Below, piece by piece: positions 1-31,865 of a stretch of 32,970 bases of DNA. Both the position numbers and the translations under genes were made by a program. Below the pieces are notes generated by a model, which ran no database searches, was not told the DNA's origin, and saw only the letters and a list, made by a program, of their open reading frames with translations. Positions within the stretch are counted from its first letter, which is position 1; every line of letters starts with the position of its first letter. The DNA is from Bacteroidetes bacterium 4572_128 (GTDB lineage Bacteria; Bacteroidota; Bacteroidia; Bacteroidales; 4572-128), in the NCBI GenBank assembly GCA_002084355.1, contig NBLL01000032.1, forward strand, positions 1-32,970, given 5' to 3'.

Positions 1-3000
1 CTAACAACATCTAAAGGTTTGAACATTATAAAATAATCTGATAAATTATTTTTAAATAATTCTAAACTTGGAAATATTGCATTTTGAATTTTCTCAGCAT
101 AATTGATACTATCAGTAATATGCTTATGATTTTCTTCTATTTTTTCTTTTGCTTTTTGTAATTCTTGCGTTCGTTGATTGACTTTATTTTCTAAGTTCTC
201 ATAAAGAAGAGCATTTTCTATAGAAACCGCAATTTGTGAAGATAAAATATTAATTGTTTTTATTCTTTCCTCAGTAAAAGCATGAGAACTTGCACTATTT
301 TCGAGATACAAAATAGCGACCATTTTGTTTTTGTGTATTTTTCAAATATTCATCATTTTCATAATCTTTATTTTTTGAAATATCATCAATAAGTACAGAT
401 TTTTTTGTGCGAATTACATATTTCACCATATTTAAAATTACTGATTTTGAAGTATCTAAATTTTCAGATTGCAAAACTGTAATATTTTCAAAACCATATT
501 TTCCTTTTGCTTCTATGGTGAAGTTTTCATTATCATTTTTGATAATTACAGCATAATCTGCTCCCGCATTTTCCATAATTATCATTAAAATAGACTTTAA
601 TAATTTTTCTAATTTCACTTCTCCAGAAAGAGATTGACTTGCTTTTACGATACTTTCTAAATCAAAAGACGATGAATTTGTTCCTATTGCAGTTGCAGTG
701 CTTGATATTATTGTTGTATTTTGATTTGTAAAACTTGATGATTTCGTATTTTCTTTTTCAAAAGAAAATTGCGGATATTTTTCTTCTAACTGTTTTAATT
801 TTGATAAAGCATCCCATTTTTGATACGTTTTATACGCATTTTGTAAATATATTTTTGATAGCATTTCATTTTTTTCTTCTAAATAAAAACGTCCTGCAAA
901 TTCCCAAGAAATTGCTTCTTCACTTGTAAATTGATTTTTATTCGCTCCTTTGATTGCTTTATTATAAAAATCTTGTGCTTTTGCTTTTTCTCCTGTAAGA
1001 CGAAATTTTTCAGATTCTACCAAATCATATTTATGTTGGAAATTTTCAACACAACATTTTGCCCAAACTTTCATTAGTTTTTGATTTTTAATAGCTTTGT
1101 TTAAAAATTTCTTGTCTCTTTTTTTTTCATAAAGTTGTAAATAAAGTAGTGAACTGTAAAAAACTCCGATAGTATTATAATAACTTCCAAATTGAAATTC
1201 TTTATTATATTTTTCTATTCCATCTAAATAAATTTCAATATTATTAAAATCATTAAATATAATTGATAAAATAGATTTAATGATATAATAAGATGATAAA
1301 TTATTATAGTTTTTGTCTAAAATAATTGATTTTACACCTTTATTTTCTTCGAAATATTCGCCTTCTAAATCACAATATTTATCTGTTTTATTTATTAAAT
1401 TTTCATACATTTGAATTGCTATTGAATTAAATTCTATAGCCATTTTAATATTTAATTTTTTTAATTTTATATTATTATCTATAGATATTTTTCGGATTTT
1501 TGTTAATTTTTCATCTGTAAAAAACATAAGATATGTATTATTAATAAGTCCATAACTTGCATATTCTAAGTTTCCTTTTTCATTCGCAATTTTAAATACA
1601 GTATTAAATTCTTCTACTATAAAATGTAATTTCTTAAACCAAAATAAATTCATATAACTATAAACAAAATGAAATTTCTCATTATTATTTTGAATATTTA
1701 ATTTAAGACTTAATTTGTAAATTTCATCAATAATTTTATAGAATTTCTTTAGAAGAAGCATTTCCATATAAAATACAGAAATAGTTAAAAAATAATATAA
1801 ATTATTTTTATAAGCTCCATACTTAACAAATAACCTTGATGTTTTAAAAGATACTATAGGAAATAAAAGTTGTTGATAATGATAAACTGCAGTATCAATT
1901 GATGAAAGTATTTTCATAATTATTTCTTGCTTTTTATCTGACATTTCAGGCAATTTAGAAAAATCAGTTCCTTTTTTTATGAAAAAATACAATTCCATTT
2001 TGATAAATTCTTTTAAAACATCAATTTTAGAAGGCTTTAAAGGAAGTATAAAATCAAACTTTTTTAAAAGATACAAAGCTAAATATATGGATTTATCATA
2101 AAAAGATTGCGAATTATATGAATAAATTAACATAATATTTGAATGGATTTTATCAATAAATTTTTTTATATTATTATTGATAATATCAACAAATTTTTCT
2201 GTATTTTTAAAATCATTTGCTAAATAAGAAACTTCAGTTATCTCATTATAAACTTGCAATGTAAATTCATAATTACTTTTCCAAGAATTTTTTTCTAATA
2301 AATTTCTTGAAATTTTTAAATAATTGTAAGAGGTAAAATAAGCAGACGAATATTTCGCTTTTAGTCCAGCTTGTAAATTTAATTCTGCAAATTGTTTTCT
2401 TTCACTTTCATTTTCAATTAAATTTATACCGTGATTTATTTGATTGACTACATCAAAAATACGTTTTTCCAAATCTTTTTTATCAAGGAATTTTAATAAT
2501 AATTTTCCTGTTTGTAGATGAAATATATTTTTTTCATTTTCAGGAATGGTAGAATAAATAGCTTGTTGGATTTTATCGTGGACAAATTTAAAATTTCTGT
2601 TATCAACAGGAAAAATAAGATTTTCTAAAATTGCAATTCTTAAAATATTTTTTGCTGTTTCTTCGGTTTTTTTATAAATTATTGATAAAGTTCTTAATTC
2701 AAAACGATTTCCTATGCAAGATGCAATTTTCAAAATATCCTGAGTATTTTTTGGTAATTTATGAATTTTATTCTTCATTAACTCTATTACATTATCAGAA
2801 ATATTTTGTTTTTTAATTTCTTCAAAATTCCAATTCCAAATATTTTTTGTAAAATCAAATTTTAAAAATTCCTCTTCATAAAGATTTGTTAATATTGACA
2901 TTTTCTAAATCATTGGCATCAATTTCATTATCACGATAAGCAATAATTGGAAAAAAATATTTTATTTCATTATCATTAACAATCAATTTCAATAATTCAA

Positions 3001-4396
3001 TAGAAGCATTATCTGCCCATTGTAAATCGTCAATAAAAATAATTAAAGGATGTTTTTTATTAGAAATTGTTTTTACAAAATGTGACCAAACATAATTAAA
3101 ACGGTTTTGATTTTCTTTTCCTTCTAATTTTGGTATTTCTTTTTGTTTTCCAATAATTAACTCAAATTCCGGAATTAAATTTGTCAAAACTTCGCCAACA
3201 TTTCCGACAGATTTTTGAATTAGATTTTTCCAATATTTTAAATTTTCATCATTTTCTTTTAAAATAATATTTGCAAAATCTGTAAACGCCTGAATAATCG
3301 CAAAATATGGAATGTCTTTTTGAAATTGGTCGAATTTTCCTTCTATATAAAAACCATTTTTCTTTGTTAATGGTTTATGAATTTCATGAATTAAAACAGA
3401 TTTTCCAACTCCAGACAAACCTGAAATTAGTAATAATTCTTTTTTCGCATTGCTGATATTTTCATAAATTTCAAATAATTTCTTAATTTCATTTTCACGA
3501 CCATATAATTTTTCTGGAATAGAAAGTTTACCCGAAAAATCCTTTTCGCCTAATTTGAAAGAACTTTCCAAAAGTTTTGAACTTTTGGAAAGTTGTTGTA
3601 AATCGTGTTTTAATCCAAAAGCCGATTGATAACGGTCTTCGGCATTTTTAGAAAGTAATTTTAAAATTATTTGAGATAAAAAATTAGGTATTTCCGAATT
3701 AATTTTATGTGGCGAAACTGGAACTTTCGTAATATGACTATGTAAAATCTCCATATTATCTTTTTCTTCGAAAGGCAATTTTCCAGTGAACATTTCGTAA
3801 AGAATAATTCCAAAAGAGTATAAATCAGAACGATAATCGACAGTTCTATTCATACGTCCAGTTTGCTCGGGAGAAATATGCGTAATTGTTCCTTCAAGAT
3901 TATCTATATTAGAAAGGTCTTGATTTTTTAATTTATATTTTGTTGCTATTCCAAAATCAATAATACATATTTTATTATTTTCATCAATTAAAATATTGTT
4001 AGAATTAATATCCTTATGAATAATATTTTGCTCGTGAATTTCAGCTATTGTTTGTGAAATATTAATAGCAATTTTTAATTTATTAAAAAAATTTGCCGTT
4101 TTTTGAAAAAAAAATTTTTTCAAATTTTGTCCGTCAAAATATTCTAAAATTAAAATATTTTTTCCATTATCTTTATCCTTTTTAAAAACTTCTCTTAGAC
4201 CGTCAATTTTTAGATCTTTTGTAAATTCAAACTCATTATTAAAACGATTAATTTTTTCTTCGCTTGGATTTTCATCGTTTAAAATCTTTATTAAAACATC
4301 ATTTTCAAAATCTTTATATTTACCCTTATAAATAATAGAATTTTGACTTTCATAAATTTTTTGTAAATTTTTTTTCATAAGAATATTTTTTTGCAA
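1..4396 (-). pseudogene. Ser/Thr protein kinase - AAA/predicted ATPase - TPR-like region - GAF - coiled coil - SpoIIE phosphatase start; broken in at least two places and truncated by the window edge
   Basis: ORF 2876..4396: kinase motifs (HKDINSNNIL, DFGIA, SPEQTGRMNR.VDYRSDLYSFG) then ATPase P-loop GLSGVGKS and IIFIDDLQWAD. ORF 295..2901 continues with LTNLYEEEFLKFDF..NISDNVIELM..LPKNTQDILKIASCIGNRFEL and GAF. Reverse strand of 1..330, in another frame, reads HKNKMVAILYLENSASSHAFTEERIKTINILSSQIAVSIENALLYENLENKVNQRTQELQ..ITDSINYAEKIQNAIFPSLELFKNNLSDYFIMFKPLDVVS (GAF end, coiled coil, SpoIIE start). Confidence 0.85.
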
Positions 4397-10580: not shown

Positions 10581-10701
10581 AATAAAAAAATTATTTGAAA
10601 TTAAAATTTTTTTTCAAAAAAAACTAAAAATTTCGTAAAATTTTTTTTATTTAAAATTCATAAAAAATTGACTTTTTTTAATTTCTTTAAATTTTAAAAC
10701 A

Positions 10702-11113
10702 ATTAAAATTTTGGTTGATTTTTGAAAAAAAAATTTTTTTTATTTTGAAATTAAAAAATATTAAAATTTTGGACGATTTTTGAAAAAAAAATTTTTTTTA
10801 TTTTGATTTAAAAAATATTAAAATTTTGGACGATTTTTGAAAAAAAAATTTTTTTTATTTTGAAATTAAAAAATATTAAAATTTTGGATGATTTTTGAAA
10901 AAAAATTTTTTTATTTTGAAATTAAAAAATATTAAAATTTTGGATGATTTTTGAAAAAAAATTTTTTTATTTTGAAATTAAAAAATGTTAAAATTTTGGA
11001 CGATTTTTGAAAAAAAAATTTTATTTTGGACGATTTTTGAAAAAAAAATTTTTTTATTTTGAAATTAAAAAATATTGAAATTTTGGACGATTTTTGAAAA
11101 AAAATTTTTTTAA
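10702..11113 (+). repeat. Array A: ~8 tandem ~57-bp A-tract/T-tract repeat units
   Basis: Repeated ttaaaattttggacgatttttgaaaaaaaaatttttttattttgaaattaaaaaata with small variants (gac/gat) and one truncated unit. Confidence 0.9.
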
Positions 11114-11128
11114 ATAAAAATGTCAAAA

Positions 11129-11172
11129 TTTTTTTATAAAAATCGATTTTTTTATAAAAATCGATTTTTTTT
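11129..11172. repeat. Two short tandem copies of tttttataaaaatcga, each forming an AAAAATCGATTTTT palindrome
   Basis: tttttttataaaaatcgatttttttataaaaatcgattttttttt, just downstream of rpmE2; could serve as its terminator. Confidence 0.5.
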
Positions 11173-11187
11173 TGAAAAAATTTAGAA

Positions 11188-14138: not shown

Positions 14139-15369
14139 TTACAAAATTTTAAAAATTGCCTTTGCTTTTAATAAACATTCTTCATATTCATTTTCCAAAA
14201 TTGATTTATCTGTAATTGCACCGCCAACAGTAAAAGAAAGATATTTTTTTTTTGAATTATATAAAATACTGCGAATAATTACATTAAAATCAAAATTTCC
14301 ATCTGGCGAAATATAACCAACACTTCCAGAATATAAACCACGTTTTGTTTTTTCATATTTTTCTATCAATTCCATAGCCTTAATTTTTGGTGCTCCGGTC
14401 ATTGACCCCATAGGAAAAGAATATTTTATTGCGTCAATAAAATGAAAATTTTTATCTAATTCGGAAGAAACTGTGGAAATTAATTGGTGAACTTGTGGAT
14501 AAGTATAAATTTTACAAAATATTTTCGGCACGCTCTTTTTCGTCATTTTTTAGTTGTTTTTTTAAAATTTCATCTTCTAATTTATTTATGCCGCGCTTTA
14601 TAGTTCCTTTTATTGGCTGAGAAATAATTTTATTTCCAACTTTTTTTAAAAACCTTTCTGGACTTGCAGATAATAAAAATTTATCTTCCAACTTATAAAA
14701 ACACGAAAACGGTGTCGGAGAAATTTCTTTTAAATCAAAAAATGTTCTAATGGAATTGATTTCTGTTTCTTCGGAAAAAAATTCTTGGCAAAAATTTATT
14801 TCATAAATATCACCAATTTTTATGTGATTTTTTAATTTTTTGAGAATATCAAAATATTCTTTTTTTGTAAACCTCCTTTGAATTTTTTTTTTTAAAAAAA
14901 TTGGCGTTTTTTTGAAAAAATTTTTTTTCGAAAGATTTTCTACAATCTCTATAATTTGATTTTCATTAAAAAAATCATTTAAAAATTCAATTTCTAATTT
15001 GTTTTTTTTAAAAAAGAAAATAATTTGTGGACAAAAAAAATGAATTTTTGGGAAAAATACATTATCAATATTTTCAGATTTTAAATCTTCCAATTCGTTT
15101 TTTAAATCGTAAGTAAAAAAACCAAATAACCAGTCTTTTTTTTCTTCATAAAATTTTTTTAAATTTGAAAAATTATCTTCCTTTTGAATTTTTAATTCGT
15201 CAGAAATTCCAAGAGCAAATATTTTTTCAAAAGAAAAATTAGGTGAAAAATCCTTAAAATCATTGCTGTCTAAATAAACAAATTTTGAGAAATTCTCATT
15301 TGCCCAGAAAAATAAATTTTCCTTAAAAATTTCTATATTTTTCAAAAAAAAATTTTTTTTTAACCTCAT
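14139..15369 (-). pseudogene. pabB: Aminodeoxychorismate/anthranilate synthase component I, disrupted near 14525
   Basis: Part 1: YEINFCQEF, FSCFYKLEDKFLLSASPERFLK, ISQPIKGTIKRG, KNDEKERAENIL. Part 2, other frame: CKIYTYPQVHQLISTVSSEL, SFPMGSMTGAPKIKAMELIEKYE..RGLYSGSVGYISPDGNFDFNVIIRS. The conserved stretch normally joining AENI to the next segment is absent. Confidence 0.88.
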
Positions 15370-16073: not shown

Positions 16074-16769
16074 TTATAAACAAAAAACTTTCAAAAAATT
16101 TTTATAAACTTTATCTTGAACTTCTTTAAAATTTATTTCTTTTCCGATTTCATTTTTCATGGAAGTAACACCTTTATTTCCTATTCCGCAAGGAATTATA
16201 TGGTTAAAATAATCCAAATTTGTGTTTATATTCAAAGCAAAACCATGCATACTAACATACCTACTTGCTCTAACTCCAATGGCACAAATTTTTCTAACTT
16301 TAAATGGATTTCCAACATCCAACCAAACTCCGGTAGAATTTTCCAAACGACTTCCTTTTATTTTATACTCTGCTAGGGTAAGAATAATTACTTCTTCTAA
16401 ATTTCTTATATAATTTTTTATCGTAAAATCAAAATTTTCAAGGTCAATAATTGGATACCCAACCAATTGACCTTCACCGTGATAAGTTACATCGCCGCCT
16501 CTATTTATTTTATAAAAACGTGCATTAATTTTTTTTAAAAAATTATCGTCGAAAAGCAAATTATTTGTAGAACCACTTTTCCCCATAGTATAAACATGAG
16601 GATGCTGACAAAATAATAAGTGATTTTCTGTTGCTTTGTCTTGATTATTTTCTCTGTTTTCTAACTTTTGATTTATGATTTTATCAAAAATTTTTTCTTG
16701 ATATTCCCAAGACTTTTTATAATCAATTAAAGCAAGATCTTCAAAAATTATTTTTTTATTTTTTGGCAT
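16074..16769 (-). CDS. lipB: Lipoyl(octanoyl) transferase
   Basis: HPHVYTMGKSG, INRGGDVTYHGEGQLVGYPI, KICAIGVRASRYVSMHGFALNINTNLDYFNHIIPCGI. Confidence 0.95.
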   Translation of the reverse strand: MPKNKKIIFEDLALIDYKKSWEYQEKIFDKIINQKLENRENNQDKATENHLLFCQHPHVYTMGKSGSTNNLLFDDNFLKKINARFYKINRGGDVTYHGEGQLVGYPIIDLENFDFTIKNYIRNLEEVIILTLAEYKIKGSRLENSTGVWLDVGNPFKVRKICAIGVRASRYVSMHGFALNINTNLDYFNHIIPCGIGNKGVTSMKNEIGKEINFKEVQDKVYKNFLKVFCL

Positions 16770-19169
16770 TTTTTTTAATCTTTTTTGTTAAAATCCCAAC
16801 TTCAATTTTTTTATTTTCTTTATCAAAATCAACTTTGATAATATCATTTTCTTTTATATTAGTAGAAATAATTTTCTCGGAAATTTCGTCTTCGAAATAT
16901 CTTTGGATTGCTCTTTTTATTGGTCTCGCACCGAATTTTTTTTCAAAACCTTTTTCAACAACATAATTTTTTGCTTCCTGAGAAATTTCTAATTGATAAT
17001 TTAATTTATTTACTCTTTCGAATAAACCAATTAATTCTATGTCCATAATTTTGAAAATGTCTTTTTTATCAAGCGAATTAAAAGAAACAATATCATCTAT
17101 ACGATTTAAAAATTCCGGAGCAAAAGTTTTTTTCAAAGCTTTCTTAATTTTTTCATAATTAAAATGGTATTTCTAAAATCAACTTTATTACCAAGACTGT
17201 CAGTTAATTGTCCATCATCTAAAACTTGCAATAAAATATTAAATACATCTGGATGTGCTTTTTCAATTTCGTCAAGTAATATGACTGAATAAGGTTTACG
17301 TCTAACTTTTTCTGTTAATTGTCCACCTTCTCCATATCCAACATAACCCGGAGGCGAACCTATTAATCTGGAGATGGAAAATTTTTCCATATATTCACTC
17401 ATATCCATTCTTATCAAAGAGTCCTTTCCTTCGAATAAATAATCAGCAAGTACTTTTGCCAGTTGTGTTTTTCCAACTCCTGTTTGTCCCATAAAAACAA
17501 AAGTTCCTATGGGTTTATTTGGGTCTTTTAAACCAACTCTACTTCTTCGTATTGCTTTCACAATTTTTTCTACTGCTTCATTTTGTCCGATGATTCTTTC
17601 TTTGATTTTATCTCCCATTTTTACCAAACAGGAAATTTCATCTCTTGCTATCTTTTGAACAGGTATTCCTGTCATCATCGCAACAACATTTTCTACATCA
17701 CTTTCAAAAACTTTATCTTTAGTTTCTTCTAATTTTTTCTCCCAGTTAATTTTTTCTTCTTCTAATTTTACTAGTAATTTTTTTTCATTATCCCTTAAAT
17801 CCGCTGCTTTTTCAAAATTTTGTTCTTTAACAGATTCCATCTTTTTTATGCGAGTTCTTTCTATGTCTTTTTCTATTTCGTCAATTAATAACGGAACTTT
17901 TATATTTGCAATATGTATATGCGAACCAACTTCATCTAAAACATCTATAGATTTATCAGGTAAATTTCTATCAGTAATATATCTTTCAGAAAGTAAAACA
18001 CAAGAATTTATTGCTTCCGAAGTGTAAAAAACATTATGATGTTTTTCATAATACTTTTTTATGTTTTTCAAAATTTCTATGCTTTCTTTTATTGTTGTTG
18101 GATCAACCATAATTTTTTGAAACCTACGTTCTAAAGCACCGTCTTTTTCTATTTGCTGTCTGTATTCGTCCAGAGTTGTCGCACCTATACATTGAATTTC
18201 TCCCCGTGCCAATGCGGGTTTTAACATATTCGCAGCATCTAAAGAACCAGCAGCACCTCCGGCTCCGACGAGAGTATGGATTTCATCTATGAACAAAATC
18301 ACTTCGTCAGTATTTTCTAATTCGTTCAAAATAGATTTCATTCTCTCTTCAAATTGACCTCTGTATTTTGTTCCTGCAACTATAGAAGCTAAATCTAAAG
18401 AAACTATACGTTTTTCAAAAAGAACTCTGGAAACTTTTTTTTCTATAATTCTTGTAGCAAGACCTTCAACTATGGCAGATTTTCCAACTCCGGGATGTCC
18501 AATTAAAACAGGATTATTTTTCTTTCTTCTGCTCAATATTTGTACTAACCTTTCTATTTCTGTATGTCGTCCAACTATTGGGTCGAGTTTTTTTTGTTCT
18601 GCAAGATAATTCAAATCTGTTCCAAAAGCATCTAAAACTGGTGTTTTCGATTTTTTCTTAGATTTGGATTTTGAAGGATTATCTTTTTTATTTTCTTTTT
18701 CCTCAGAACCTGTTTTTGAAGTTATTTCTTTATTTAAATGCTTTCTCATCATATCGTAATTAATATTTTTATTATTTAAAAGCCTTGTTGCTTCACTTTT
18801 ATTGTCTTTTAAAATCGCCAAAAGCAAATGCTCTGTATTTACTTCTTTGCTTTTTAAAGATTTTGCTTCTAAAAATATCCATTTTAAAGCTTTTTCAGTA
18901 GATTTTAAAAGCGGTATATTTTTATTTTTTGAGAAGAAATTTTTTTTATTTTCATTTTGAATTTTAAATTCTAAACGTTTTGCTATTTCGTCTAAATTTA
19001 TACCTAATTCAGTTAATTTTTTTATTGCATTTCCATTACCTTTTTTTATCATTCCAAGAAACAAATGCTCAGTACCAACAAACTCATTACCAAGTCTTTT
19101 TGCTTCTTCCATGCTATAAGATAATATTTCTTTTATTGATTTTGATAATTTAGAATTCATAATTTTCAA
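16756..19169 (-). pseudogene. clpC: ATP-dependent Clp protease ATP-binding subunit ClpC, disrupted near 17140
   Basis: ORF 17133..19169: Clp-N repeats, [99 protein letters not shown] then leaves frame. ORF 16756..17136 resumes KKTFAPEFLNRIDDIVSFNSLDKKDIFKI. The conserved TSN segment is missing. Confidence 0.92.
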
Positions 19170-19364: not shown

Positions 19365-19985
19365 TTTTTCAAAAAAAAATTTTTTAATTCAAAATTAAAA
19401 AATATTGAAATTTTTGGACGAATTTTGAAAAAAATTTTTTTTATTTTTAATAATAAAAAATATTGAAAATTTTGGACGAATTTTGAAAAAAAATTTTAAA
19501 TTCAAAATTAAAAAATGTTAAAATTTTGGGCGAATTTTGAAAAAAAATTTTTTTTTATTTCAAAATTAAAAAATATTAAAATTTTGGGCGAATTTGAAAA
19601 AAAAATTTTTTTATTTCAAAATTAAAAAATATTGAAAATTTTGGACGAATTTTGAAAAAATTTTTTTTTATTTTTAATAATAAAAAATATTGAAAATTTT
19701 GGACAAATTTTGAAAAAAAATTTTTAAATTCAAAATTAAAAAATGTTAAAATTTTGGGCGAATTTTGAAAAAATTTTTTTTTATTTTTAATAATAAAAAA
19801 TATTGAAAATTTTGGACGAATTTTGAAAAAATTTTTTAATTTTGAAATTAAAAAGCATTAAATTTTTGGACGAATTTTGAAAAAAAAACATTGGAGTTTT
19901 TTTTTGAACCTCCAATCCAATGTTTGTTTTACGAATTTTTTAAAAAATATTGAAATTTTGGACAATTTTTGAAAAAAATTTTCTT
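19365..19985 (+). repeat. Array B: ~10 tandem units of the A-tract/GGACGA repeat, with higher-order duplication
   Basis: Repeated ttgaaaattttggacgaattttgaaaaaa...tttttaataataaaaaata alternating with ttaaaattttgggcgaattttgaaaaa...caaaattaaaaaat. Confidence 0.9.
19886..19925. other. Array-associated hairpin with two mutually exclusive pairings
   Basis: AAACATTGGAG-tttttttttgaac-CTCCAATCCAATGTTT: ATTGGAG can pair with CTCCAAT, or AAACATTGGA with TCCAATGTTT. Confidence 0.55.
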
Positions 19986-25986: not shown

Positions 25987-26034
25987 AAACATTAAAAATT
26001 TCGTACCTTTCAAAATTTTTAATTTCTTTTTCAA

Positions 26035-26303
26035 AAAAATTTTTTTCAAAAAAACGCCAAAATTTTAATGTTTTTTTAATTTCAATTAAAAAAATTTTTC
26101 AAAAATCGTTCAAAATTTTAAGATTTTTTAATTTCTTAATTTCAAAATAAAAAAAATTTTTTTCAAAATTCGTCCAAAATTTCAACATTTTTTAATTTCA
26201 AATAAAAAAAAATTTTTCAAAATTCATCCAAAATTTTAATGTTTTTTAATTTCAAATAAAAAAAAATTTTTTTCAAAATTCGTCCAAAATTTTAATGTTT
26301 TAA
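26035..26303 (-). repeat. Array C: ~5 units of the A-tract/GGACGA repeat, inverted relative to arrays A and B
   Basis: Repeated ttttttaatttcaaataaaaaaaaatttttttcaaaattcgtccaaaattttaatg. Confidence 0.9.
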
Positions 26304-28327: not shown

Positions 28328-29257
28328 TTGGAAATACATAGAAATTTAAAAGACATAAAATTAAAAAAATCGGTTATAAGTATAGGAACTTTTGACGGTA
28401 TGCATTGCGGACATTTGAAATTAATCAAGCATTTAAATGAAATTGCAAAAAAATATTGCTTAATTTCTGTTTTATTAACTTTTTTTCCACACCCAAGAAT
28501 CGTACTTAAAAAAGATAAAAATTTAAAATTTTTGAGTGATTTAGAAGAAAAAATTTTTTTAATAAAAAAGAAAACAAAAATTGAACATTTATTTATTATT
28601 GAATTTACAAAAGAAATTTATGAAATGTCAGCTCTTGATTTTATTAAAAAAATTCTTTTGAAAAAATTAAATTTAAAATATTTAATTCTGGGACCAGATC
28701 ATCATTTCGGAAAAAATAGAGAAGGAAGTTTTGAAAATTTATTAAAATTTAGTAAAAAACTTGATTTTCAAATGGAAAAAATTTCGTATTTTCAAAAAAA
28801 TAATATTAAAATTAGCTCTTCAAAAATTAGAAATCTCTTATTGAACGGAGACATAAAAACTTCTAATTTTTATCTAAATTATGATTATTTTTTTTCTGGA
28901 AAAGTTATAAAAGGTAAACAAATTGGTAGAAAAATTGGTTTTCCAACTGCAAATATTTCATTAGAAAATGAAAATAAATTAATTCCGAAAAATGGAATTT
29001 ATGGGGTGAAAGTTTTTTATAAAAATCAATTTTACGACGGAATGCTAAATATTGGTCATCGTCCAACTTTGAAGGAAAAAAATAAAATAAAAACCATAGA
29101 AGTGAATATTTTTAATTTTGAAAAAAATATTTATAATGAAAAATTAACAATCTTTTTTAAAAATTGGATACGAGAGGAAAAAAATTTTTCAAGTTTAGAA
29201 GAATTAAAAAGACAATTATTTTCTGATAAAAAACAAATTTTAAATATTTCAAAATGA
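28328..29257 (+). CDS. ribF: Bifunctional riboflavin kinase/FAD synthetase (TTG start)
   Basis: VISIGTFDGMHCGHLKLI, LTFFPHPRIVL, LILGPDHHFGKNREG, ISSSKIRNLLLNGDI, GKQIGRKIGFPTANI, NGIYGVKV, GMLNIGHRPT. Confidence 0.93.
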   Translation: MEIHRNLKDIKLKKSVISIGTFDGMHCGHLKLIKHLNEIAKKYCLISVLLTFFPHPRIVLKKDKNLKFLSDLEEKIFLIKKKTKIEHLFIIEFTKEIYEMSALDFIKKILLKKLNLKYLILGPDHHFGKNREGSFENLLKFSKKLDFQMEKISYFQKNNIKISSSKIRNLLLNGDIKTSNFYLNYDYFFSGKVIKGKQIGRKIGFPTANISLENENKLIPKNGIYGVKVFYKNQFYDGMLNIGHRPTLKEKNKIKTIEVNIFNFEKNIYNEKLTIFFKNWIREEKNFSSLEELKRQLFSDKKQILNISK

Positions 29258-30402
29258 AAAAAATTTTAATATTAATAGATTGGTTTTTACCTGCTTACAA
29301 AGCTGGAGGACCAATACGTTCGGTTGCAAATTTAGTTTTTCATTTGAAAAATAATTTTGAATTTTTCATTATTACTTCTGACAGAGATTTGAATGATGAA
29401 AATCATTTTAAAAATATTATTTTTGATAAATGGATAAAAAATTACGGTATAAATATTTTTTATTTACATAAAAAGAAACTAAATTATCAATTTTTAAAAA
29501 ATTTTCTAAAAAAAGAAAAAATAGATTTTATTTATTTGAATAGTTTTTTTTCTTTTAATTTTACAATTTATCCATTAATTTTATTTAAAATTTTAAATTT
29601 TAGATTAAAAATTATAATGGCAACACGAGGAATGCTATCGCAAAATGCTTTGAAAATAAAATCATCTAAAAAAAAAGTTTTTATATTTTTAGCAAAAAAA
29701 TTTAAAATATTTAATGGATTGACATTTCAAGCATCAACAGAAATTGAAAAAAAAGAAATAATAGAAGTTTTTGGAAAAAAAGTAAATATAAAAGTGGTTT
29801 CTAATTTACCAAGTTTTGTAAAAAAAATTGATAATTTTTCAAAAGAAAAAAACAAAGCAGAATTAAATTTGATTTTTTTATCGAGGATATCTAAGAAAAA
29901 AAATTTGCTTTTTTTTATTAAAATATTAAAAAAATATGTTTTTATAGGGAAAATAAATTTTTTTATTTATGGAAATATAGATGAAAAAAATTATTGGAAT
30001 ATTTGTAAAAAAGAAATCTCTGATATTAAAAAAAATAATATTCAAATTTTTTATAAAGGAAGTATAGAAAATTTTTTAGTTGGCAAACTTTTAAGAAAAT
30101 TTCATTTTTATATTTTACCTACTTTAAATGAAAATTTTGGACATTCAATTTTTGAGGCATTTTCTAATGCTTGTCCATCTATTATCAGTGATGAAACTCC
30201 ATGGAAAAATTTAGAAAATAAAAATATCGGTTGGGATATTTCTTTGAAAGATGAAAAAAAATGGGTCTTTGTAATTCAAAATTGCTTAAATATGGAAGAA
30301 AAAGAATATAATCAAATTTCAAAAAATTCATATGATTTTGCTGTAGATTTTTTTAAAGATGGCAAAATTATTGATAATAATAAATTATTATTTGATAATT
30401 AA
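29254..30402 (+). CDS. Glycosyltransferase (GT-B, GT4-like)
   Basis: MKKILILIDWFLPAYKAGGPIRSVANL, MATRGMLSQNALKIKS, LNLIFLSRISKKKNL, FYILPTLNENFGHSIFEAFSNACPSIISDETPW. Overlaps ribF by 4 nt (ATGA). Confidence 0.9.
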   Translation: MKKILILIDWFLPAYKAGGPIRSVANLVFHLKNNFEFFIITSDRDLNDENHFKNIIFDKWIKNYGINIFYLHKKKLNYQFLKNFLKKEKIDFIYLNSFFSFNFTIYPLILFKILNFRLKIIMATRGMLSQNALKIKSSKKKVFIFLAKKFKIFNGLTFQASTEIEKKEIIEVFGKKVNIKVVSNLPSFVKKIDNFSKEKNKAELNLIFLSRISKKKNLLFFIKILKKYVFIGKINFFIYGNIDEKNYWNICKKEISDIKKNNIQIFYKGSIENFLVGKLLRKFHFYILPTLNENFGHSIFEAFSNACPSIISDETPWKNLENKNIGWDISLKDEKKWVFVIQNCLNMEEKEYNQISKNSYDFAVDFFKDGKIIDNNKLLFDN

Positions 30403-30450: not shown

Positions 30451-30999
30451 ATGAGAAACTACGTTTTTATAATTACAATTTTTTTATTTGCGAGCAATTT
30501 TGTTTTTTCACAAAGTAAAACTTTACATAATTTTAAAGCAAAAGATATAGATGGGAAAGATTTTAATTTTTCTCAATTAAAAGGAAAAAAAATAATTTTA
30601 GTAAATACTGCTTCTAAGGCTTCATACACTCCACAATATGAAAAACTTGAGGAAATTTATAGGAAATATAATAAAAAATTAGTCGTTGTTGCATTTCCAA
30701 GTAATGATTTTCTTAAACAAGAGCCTGAGAGTAATAAAAAAATAAAAAGTTTTTGTAAAAGAGAATTTGGAGTAACTTTTCCGCTGATGAGTAAAATTTC
30801 TGTAAAAGGTGAAGAAATTCATCCGATTTATAAATGGTTAACACAAAAGTCAGAAAATGGTGTTTTGGATACAAAAATTAGATGGAGTTTTCAAAAATTT
30901 TTAATTGATGAAAAAGGTCATCTTGTAAAAAAAGTTAATCCAAGTACAAGTCCAGATGATGAAGAAATAATAAATTGGATAGAAGGAAAATCATTTTAA
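30451..30999 (+). CDS. Secreted glutathione peroxidase-fold protein lacking the peroxidatic Cys
   Basis: Signal-like N-terminus ..FVFSQ; IILVNTASKASYTPQYEKLEEIYRKY, FPSNDFLKQEPESNKKIKSFCKREFGVTFP, IHPIYKWLTQKS, IRWSFQKFLIDEKG. Confidence 0.88.
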   Translation: MRNYVFIITIFLFASNFVFSQSKTLHNFKAKDIDGKDFNFSQLKGKKIILVNTASKASYTPQYEKLEEIYRKYNKKLVVVAFPSNDFLKQEPESNKKIKSFCKREFGVTFPLMSKISVKGEEIHPIYKWLTQKSENGVLDTKIRWSFQKFLIDEKGHLVKKVNPSTSPDDEEIINWIEGKSF

Positions 31000-31086: not shown

Positions 31087-31147
31087 AATTGGAAGAAAAA
31101 GATAAATTAATAAAAATGTTGCAGGAACAATTAAAAAATAAAAATTT
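31087..31147 (+). repeat. 61-bp perfect direct repeat, upstream copy (orphan 3' tail of an Rpn-like gene)
   Basis: aattggaagaaaaagataaattaataaaaatgttgcaggaacaattaaaaaataaaaattt; encodes LEEKDKLIKMLQEQLKNKNL*. Confidence 0.95.
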
Positions 31148-31196
31148 ATAATTTTTATTTATAATAAAATTATATAATTTTATGTTTTTAATATAA

Positions 31197-31839
31197 ATGA
31201 AAATTATGCTTGCTCCATTGGACAATGAAGTGTTTTTTAAAAAGGCTTTTACAATTGCTTACGATTACAATTTCGACAGATTTTTACATTATTTCCTTGC
31301 TGCCATAACACAACAACAAAAAAGAGCTAATACTGGTTATGATATTAAAAAAACCGTTCTTGCTGTTATTGTTTTGACACAGCCGTACAAAATACATAAT
31401 AAAACTGGTATGGTTTTGAAATTTTGATATGAAAAATTCTTATGGAGATTTAATTAGAATTTGGAAACATAATTTAATTTTTTTAAATTCTCATTCAAAA
31501 TACGAAGATAAAAATCTAACAGATGGTTTTCGAGACTGGTTGCATTTAATAAGACAATCAATTGTAAATGAAGAAAATTTTAAATTAAATTTAAATAATA
31601 CTGGAATTGCTAAGGCAGTAAAATTAATTAAATATGATAATTTAAACGATGAAGAAATTGCAAAAGCACAATTATCTGAAGCAAAAAGAAGAAAAAGAAT
31701 GAAAGATAAAAAAGATATTAATAAAAAAGATATTAAAGAAAAAATAGAAAGAATGAAAAAAAAATATAAAATTCAATTGGAAGAAAAAGATAAATTAATA
31801 AAAATGTTGCAGGAACAATTAAAAAATAAAAATTTGTAA
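31197..31839 (+). pseudogene. Rpn/PD-(D/E)XK nuclease family transposase-like protein with catalytic core missing and frame broken
   Basis: ORF 31197..31427: MLAPLDNEVFFKKAFT joined directly to AYDYNFDRFLHYFLAAITQQQKRA..DIKKTVLAVIVLTQPYKIHNKTGMVLK. ORF 31429..31839: HNLIFLNSHSKYEDKNLTDGFRDWLHLIRQSI..LNLNNTGIAKAVKLIKYDNLNDEEIAKA plus a charged C-terminal tail. Confidence 0.6.
31775..31835 (+). repeat. 61-bp perfect direct repeat, downstream copy (3' end of the Rpn-like gene)
   Basis: Identical to 31087..31147. Confidence 0.95.
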
Positions 31840-31865
31840 TTTGCATTTACAATTTAATGTTTTTA

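Follow-up and report, generated by a model that had tools for sequence, protein, structure and literature searches.

In the genus of Bacteroidetes bacterium 4572_128, an uncultured member of the Bacteroidales, a protein of the glutathione peroxidase (GPx) family has lost two of its four catalytic residues: alanine stands in place of the peroxidatic cysteine and serine in place of the catalytic asparagine. Judged by sequence comparison, this loss is real and genus-specific. We consider the chances about even that the protein is exported, is probably a monomer and has been retained as a pseudoperoxidase with a binding rather than a catalytic role. The gene lies near the end of the window, by which we mean the whole stretch of 32,970 nucleotides that was analysed.

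The GPx-like protein and its active site

The gene is a full-length frame with an ATG start and a TAA stop (Table 1), and its 182-aa product exceeds the gathering score of the Pfam profile GSHPx (PF00255; 123.9 bits, cut-off 27, E=2.6×10−36, residues 25–130). The sequence-only reading had proposed that the fold is preserved, and structure prediction agrees with it: AlphaFold, run with an alignment of 37 sequences, gave a confident GPx fold (pLDDT 88.5, pTM 0.83, 138 residues at 90 or above). The best PDB fold matches were the reduced form of poplar GPX5 (2p5q, E=7×10−18) and S. aureus Gpx C36S (9kzm); human GPX4 Sec-to-Gly (2gs3) was also found, and all 50 Foldseek matches listed were GPx structures or designed GPX4 variants. 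Poplar GPX5, the top match with 34–35% identity, is an active enzyme with Cys, Gln, Trp and Asn. The S. aureus and human proteins lack the natural nucleophile at the same position and still fold as GPx, so that a natural protein of this kind could plausibly fold as well; they are, however, laboratory mutants bearing that single change.

The catalytic tetrad of GPx consists of Cys/Sec, Gln, Trp and Asn (PMC7409322, PMC10084747). Here, the tetrad positions read Ala57, Gln90, Trp145 and Ser146, and thus Gln and Trp are present while Cys/Sec and Asn, two of the four, are lost. The catalytic motif is N52-T-A-S-K-A57-S-Y-T-P-Q-Y, with codons 54–60 being GCT TCT AAG GCT TCA TAC ACT, exactly as first read. 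The alignment places Ala57 at the peroxidatic position and confirms the earlier claims that Gln (in QEP) and Trp persist and that Asn is replaced by Ser. A different cysteine taking over at the catalytic site was ruled out, as the only one in the protein, Cys102, aligns with the resolving position. Cys102 sits in a predicted helix (residues 95–106), so that the resolving Cys of thioredoxin-dependent GPx-like proteins is retained. Of the Pro, Phe and Tyr described as thioredoxin contacts (PMC10084747), which we mapped by offset, P92 and F101 are kept and Tyr corresponds to Phe106. By descent the protein is a member of the GSHPx superfamily, yet it does not qualify as a GPx enzyme.

Export is probable from the signal-like N-terminus (MRNYVFIITIFLFASNFVFS before Q), in which we recognized by eye a short basic start, a hydrophobic core and an end in FVFS before Q. 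The signal peptide claimed in the sequence-only reading therefore stands as probable: the low pLDDT over residues 1–20 agrees with it, although low pLDDT is no proof. The gene appears to be single-copy, as no further GPx, with Cys or otherwise, was found in its own genome (G000, 73% complete), and a protein search of the second genome of the genus (G001) likewise returned one GPx match.

Table 1. Positions of the GPx-like gene, its key residues and flanking features in the window
Feature	Coordinates	Strand	Support
ribF (riboflavin kinase/FAD synthetase), upstream	28328..29257	+	TIGR00083, 244 bits
Group 1 glycosyltransferase, upstream	29254..30402	+	PF00534, 48 bits
GPx-family putative pseudoperoxidase gene, 182 aa	30451..30999	+	Pfam PF00255, AlphaFold, PDB fold matches
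Probable Sec signal peptide, aa 1–20	30451..30510	+	By eye; pLDDT low over residues 1–20
Ala57 (GCT), peroxidatic Cys position	30619..30621	+	Alignment; ~65 homologous loci with Cys
Gln90 (CAA), catalytic Gln kept (QEP)	30718..30720	+	Invariant column
Cys102 (TGT), resolving-Cys position, sole Cys of protein	30754..30756	+	Invariant column
Trp145 (TGG), catalytic Trp kept	30883..30885	+	Invariant column
Ser146 (AGT), replaces catalytic Asn (RWSFQKF)	30886..30888	+	Asn in all aligned Cys homologues
Inverted repeat, ~11 pairs, long T-rich loop	31008..31080	+	Strand folding z −1.85, weak

Distribution of the Cys-less form

The second Ala-bearing genome, G001, is a separate assembly from the only known genus-mate (JAOZVH010000176.1, Bacteroidales bacterium GMC9.metabat2.18; the entries G001:C235 and L034 are this one record). 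Its protein is 99% identical and shares Ala57, Ser58, Ser146 and Cys102, and the DNA identity between the window and G001 is 98.2% across 2,985 shared bases. Moreover, going from a Cys codon (TGT) to GCT requires at least two base changes. Recurrence of the same residues in a separately assembled genome, together with this minimum of two substitutions, in practice rules out a sequencing error. The window does come from a draft metagenome-assembled genome carrying further disrupted genes, but all three active-site changes are common to both assemblies, and GCT is not known to serve as a recoding codon for Sec or Cys. We therefore reject the explanation that a sequencing, assembly or recoding artefact conceals a Cys, which we regard as extremely improbable.

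A protein search that covered 60 relatives returned matches from 34 genomes, and a scan of genome contigs gave 42 loci. The resulting figure of about 65 homologous loci counts loci rather than species, with some genomes occurring in both searches (e.g. L011 and L048 come from one genome, that of Balneicella halophila, whose homologue has Cys). All homologues that cover the catalytic site have Cys, except the window's own copies and the genus-mate; Ala is thus conserved in both genomes of the genus (2/2), the point on which the first reading had asked for an alignment. Asn is present in the homologues covering the WNF motif, except for a frame-shifted second fragment in L037. One Saprospiraceae GPx homologue with Cys (L060:4001–4546) has an in-frame stop in the matched stretch, for which it was omitted from the alignment; it may be a pseudogene or reflect an assembly error.

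We also scanned for the motif at wider ranges. The order-wide pattern covered catalytic codons starting with A, C or G, T-initial codons (e.g. the TCN serine codons) lying outside it. It matched in 21 of 393 genomes; once translated, the matches in G000 and G001 alone proved to be GPx, the remaining non-Cys matches being AtpG, PurL or chance. With any codon allowed at the catalytic position, 203 of 396 genomes across the phylum matched; among the matches listed, no non-Cys GPx appeared besides the window, the other GPx-type matches carried TGT or TGC, and the rest resembled AtpG/PurL motifs or chance. A wider clade of Cys-less GPx was accordingly not found in the 393 order genomes, nor in the 396 phylum genomes among the matches listed.

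A search of open-licence papers for a described bacterial Cys-less GPx returned none. According to a survey that profiled 1,997 bacterial GPx-like proteins, and whose preprocessing may have dropped odd sequences, Cys, Asn and Trp each occur in 100%, Gln in 95% and the resolving Cys in 94% (PMC10084747). The protein described here shares the fold, Gln, Trp and resolving Cys with the bacterial thioredoxin-dependent GPx-like proteins (S. aureus Gpx, MtGpx0; PMC10084747) and differs from them in its Cys-to-Ala and Asn-to-Ser changes, at two positions that are invariant in that profile. Natural homologues with the Cys/Sec replaced are known from ciliates, in which GPx-like proteins have incomplete tetrads (X/Q/W/N) or none (PMC7409322). 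Those proteins, however, are eukaryotic and belong to expanded multigene families, and the named ones keep Asn or lose the whole tetrad, whereas the present gene is bacterial, single-copy and reads A/Q/W/S.

Constraint and genomic setting

Among the 35 Cys homologues in the alignment, conservation reaches 90% or more in 47 columns, of which the window protein keeps 40. The seven departures are V30A, C57A, G58S, G81A, G93E, Y106F and N146S; the sequence-only reading had overlooked G58S, G81A, G93E and Y106F, as well as the kept Cys102 and the genus-mate. Their number is not unusual, as Cys homologues also depart at up to nine conserved columns; what is unusual is which columns changed, C57 and N146 varying nowhere else in the alignment. 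Changes affected three of the eight active-site columns (mapped by us from PMC10084747) and four of the 39 elsewhere (P=0.084), so that the apparent clustering at the active site is suggestive only and not significant alone.

Between the two genus members the GPx gene differs at four bases and one residue (dN 0.0034, dS 0.025). For the same pair, ribF gave dN 0.0093 and dS 0.024 and the glycosyltransferase dN 0.0080 and dS 0.038, the dN/dS of these neighbours (0.21 and 0.38) being higher than that of the GPx gene. With 81% of possible changes nonsynonymous, one or fewer nonsynonymous among four has P~0.02 under neutrality, a rough value given that there are only four substitutions, two of them in one codon. 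In the tree the two genus members pair as a clade (100/100) whose stem measures 0.82 changes per site, inside a group dominated by Bacteroidota. This placement assigns the loss of Cys to the genus stem, at no fixed point along it, and because the stem is long, the constraint may in large part be older than the loss.

The gene neighbourhood offers no clue to function. The glycosyltransferase gene overlaps the end of ribF and stops 48 bp before the GPx gene. No standard terminator was found after the GPx gene; the inverted repeat directly past its stop is a possible transcript 3′ end. Just beyond, at 31088–31166, stands a second copy, with 94% identity to the G001 copy, of a 79-bp stretch that lies at the end of ORF 31429–31839 (31775–31853). 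This ORF and its neighbour 31197–31427 matched no family above the cut-off and resemble, by eye only, remnants of mobile or Rpn-type elements.

Further disrupted genes and repeats were seen elsewhere in the window. On the minus strand, clpC is split at 17133–17172 (ORFs 16756–17136 and 17133–19169); about 94 bases are absent relative to G001, which has one intact frame of 841 codons, and the gap is either a real deletion or an assembly fault. A chorismate-binding enzyme gene (pabB/trpE-like), on the same strand, is split at 14512–14549 (ORFs 14139–14546 and 14512–15369), with about 71 bases absent relative to the intact frame of G001. That two short frame-breaking gaps fall within 3 kb is odd. 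At 295–4396, the overlapping minus-strand ORFs 295–2901 and 2876–4396 resemble a single kinase/AAA/GAF gene divided by a shift of frame. AT-rich tandem arrays at 10694–11184, 19366–19888 and 26016–26301 have a unit of ~54–58 bp that contains TTTTGGACGA[A/T]TTTTGAAAAAAA or its complement; they recur widely in G001, where a 5.5-kb probe gave 244 matches, almost all of them short, and are a dispersed repeat family of the genus.

We found a classical AhpC-type 2-Cys peroxiredoxin in G001, a thioredoxin in G000, several ResA/TlpA-like exported proteins in the genus and, confined to G000, a rubrerythrin-like match, both genomes being incomplete drafts. Neither draft yielded a haem-copper oxidase. 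With the classical 2-Cys AhpC/Prx present in the genus, peroxide removal can fall to another enzyme, and the complement of these incomplete drafts could fit a setting in which loss of GPx activity is harmless.

Possible functions of the protein

By established GPx chemistry, a protein without the Cys thiolate would form neither a sulfenic acid nor a Cys102 disulfide, hence run no peroxidase cycle; we infer that peroxidase activity is absent. We suggest that the ancestor was a thioredoxin-dependent GPx-like protein of the Bacteroidota periplasm, and that the peroxidatic Cys would have changed to Ala and the catalytic Asn to Ser on the branch to this one genus, with the fold, Gln, Trp and the resolving-Cys helix being kept. 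Retention may then be due, with some uncertainty, to residual binding, by way of either the GPx cleft or the helix that carries Cys102. Candidate ligands would be a thioredoxin-like periplasmic partner, an oxidised or unfolded protein, or a lipid; the first is suggested by the mostly kept Cys102 helix and described thioredoxin contacts. More narrowly, we tentatively propose as a possibility that the former GPx is now a periplasmic binding or mixed-disulfide protein acting through its former resolving-cysteine helix. Such a functional pseudoperoxidase had no counterpart among bacterial GPx in the open-licence papers searched.

The even chance that we give to a pseudoperoxidase kept as a binder reflects evidence on two sides. 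Ala57, Ser146 and Cys102 in both genus genomes, Cys in every other covered homologue, the Pfam match and predicted fold, the full frame, the 40 of 47 conserved columns, the mostly synonymous change, the single copy and the AhpC-type enzyme of G001 argue for it; against it stand the small sample of two genomes and four base differences, the non-significant clustering at the active site and the long stem. The retained non-peroxidase role suggested in the sequence-only reading is accordingly upheld in its premises, namely the fold, a half-lost tetrad, Ala in both genomes, an intact ORF and mostly synonymous change, but these data do not separate retention from slow decay, the selection signal amounting to four base differences. 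Such a functionless decay, in which AhpC would have made the activity dispensable to an organism probably living at low oxygen while the frame has yet to break, seems rather unlikely to us. The oxidase not found in either genome, the AhpC-type enzyme of G001, the long stem and the window genes disrupted relative to G001 are consistent with it. However, the frame is full-length with a signal-like N-terminus and a conserved core despite long divergence, and three of the four substitutions are silent or within the one changed codon. Furthermore, G001 has undamaged copies of clpC and pabB, which are broken in the window, and this argues against breakage as the usual condition of the genus.

Cys102 might instead be the sole redox centre of a repurposed thiol protein, joined to a partner through mixed disulfides or in a disulfide-bonded dimer. 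It is the only Cys and invariant in the alignment, and the surrounding helix with the Pro and Phe described as thioredoxin contacts is kept (PMC10084747). Yet no residues are known that would activate Cys102 itself, and it is conserved across nearly the whole family, so that its retention over one branch is weak evidence, and we think this explanation unlikely.

A GSHPx match alone would misannotate the organism as having this peroxidase. Pseudoenzymes reveal which parts of an enzyme remain of use once catalysis is lost, and a natural Ala/Ser version from a bacterium provides a clean test of a non-catalytic role for the GPx scaffold.
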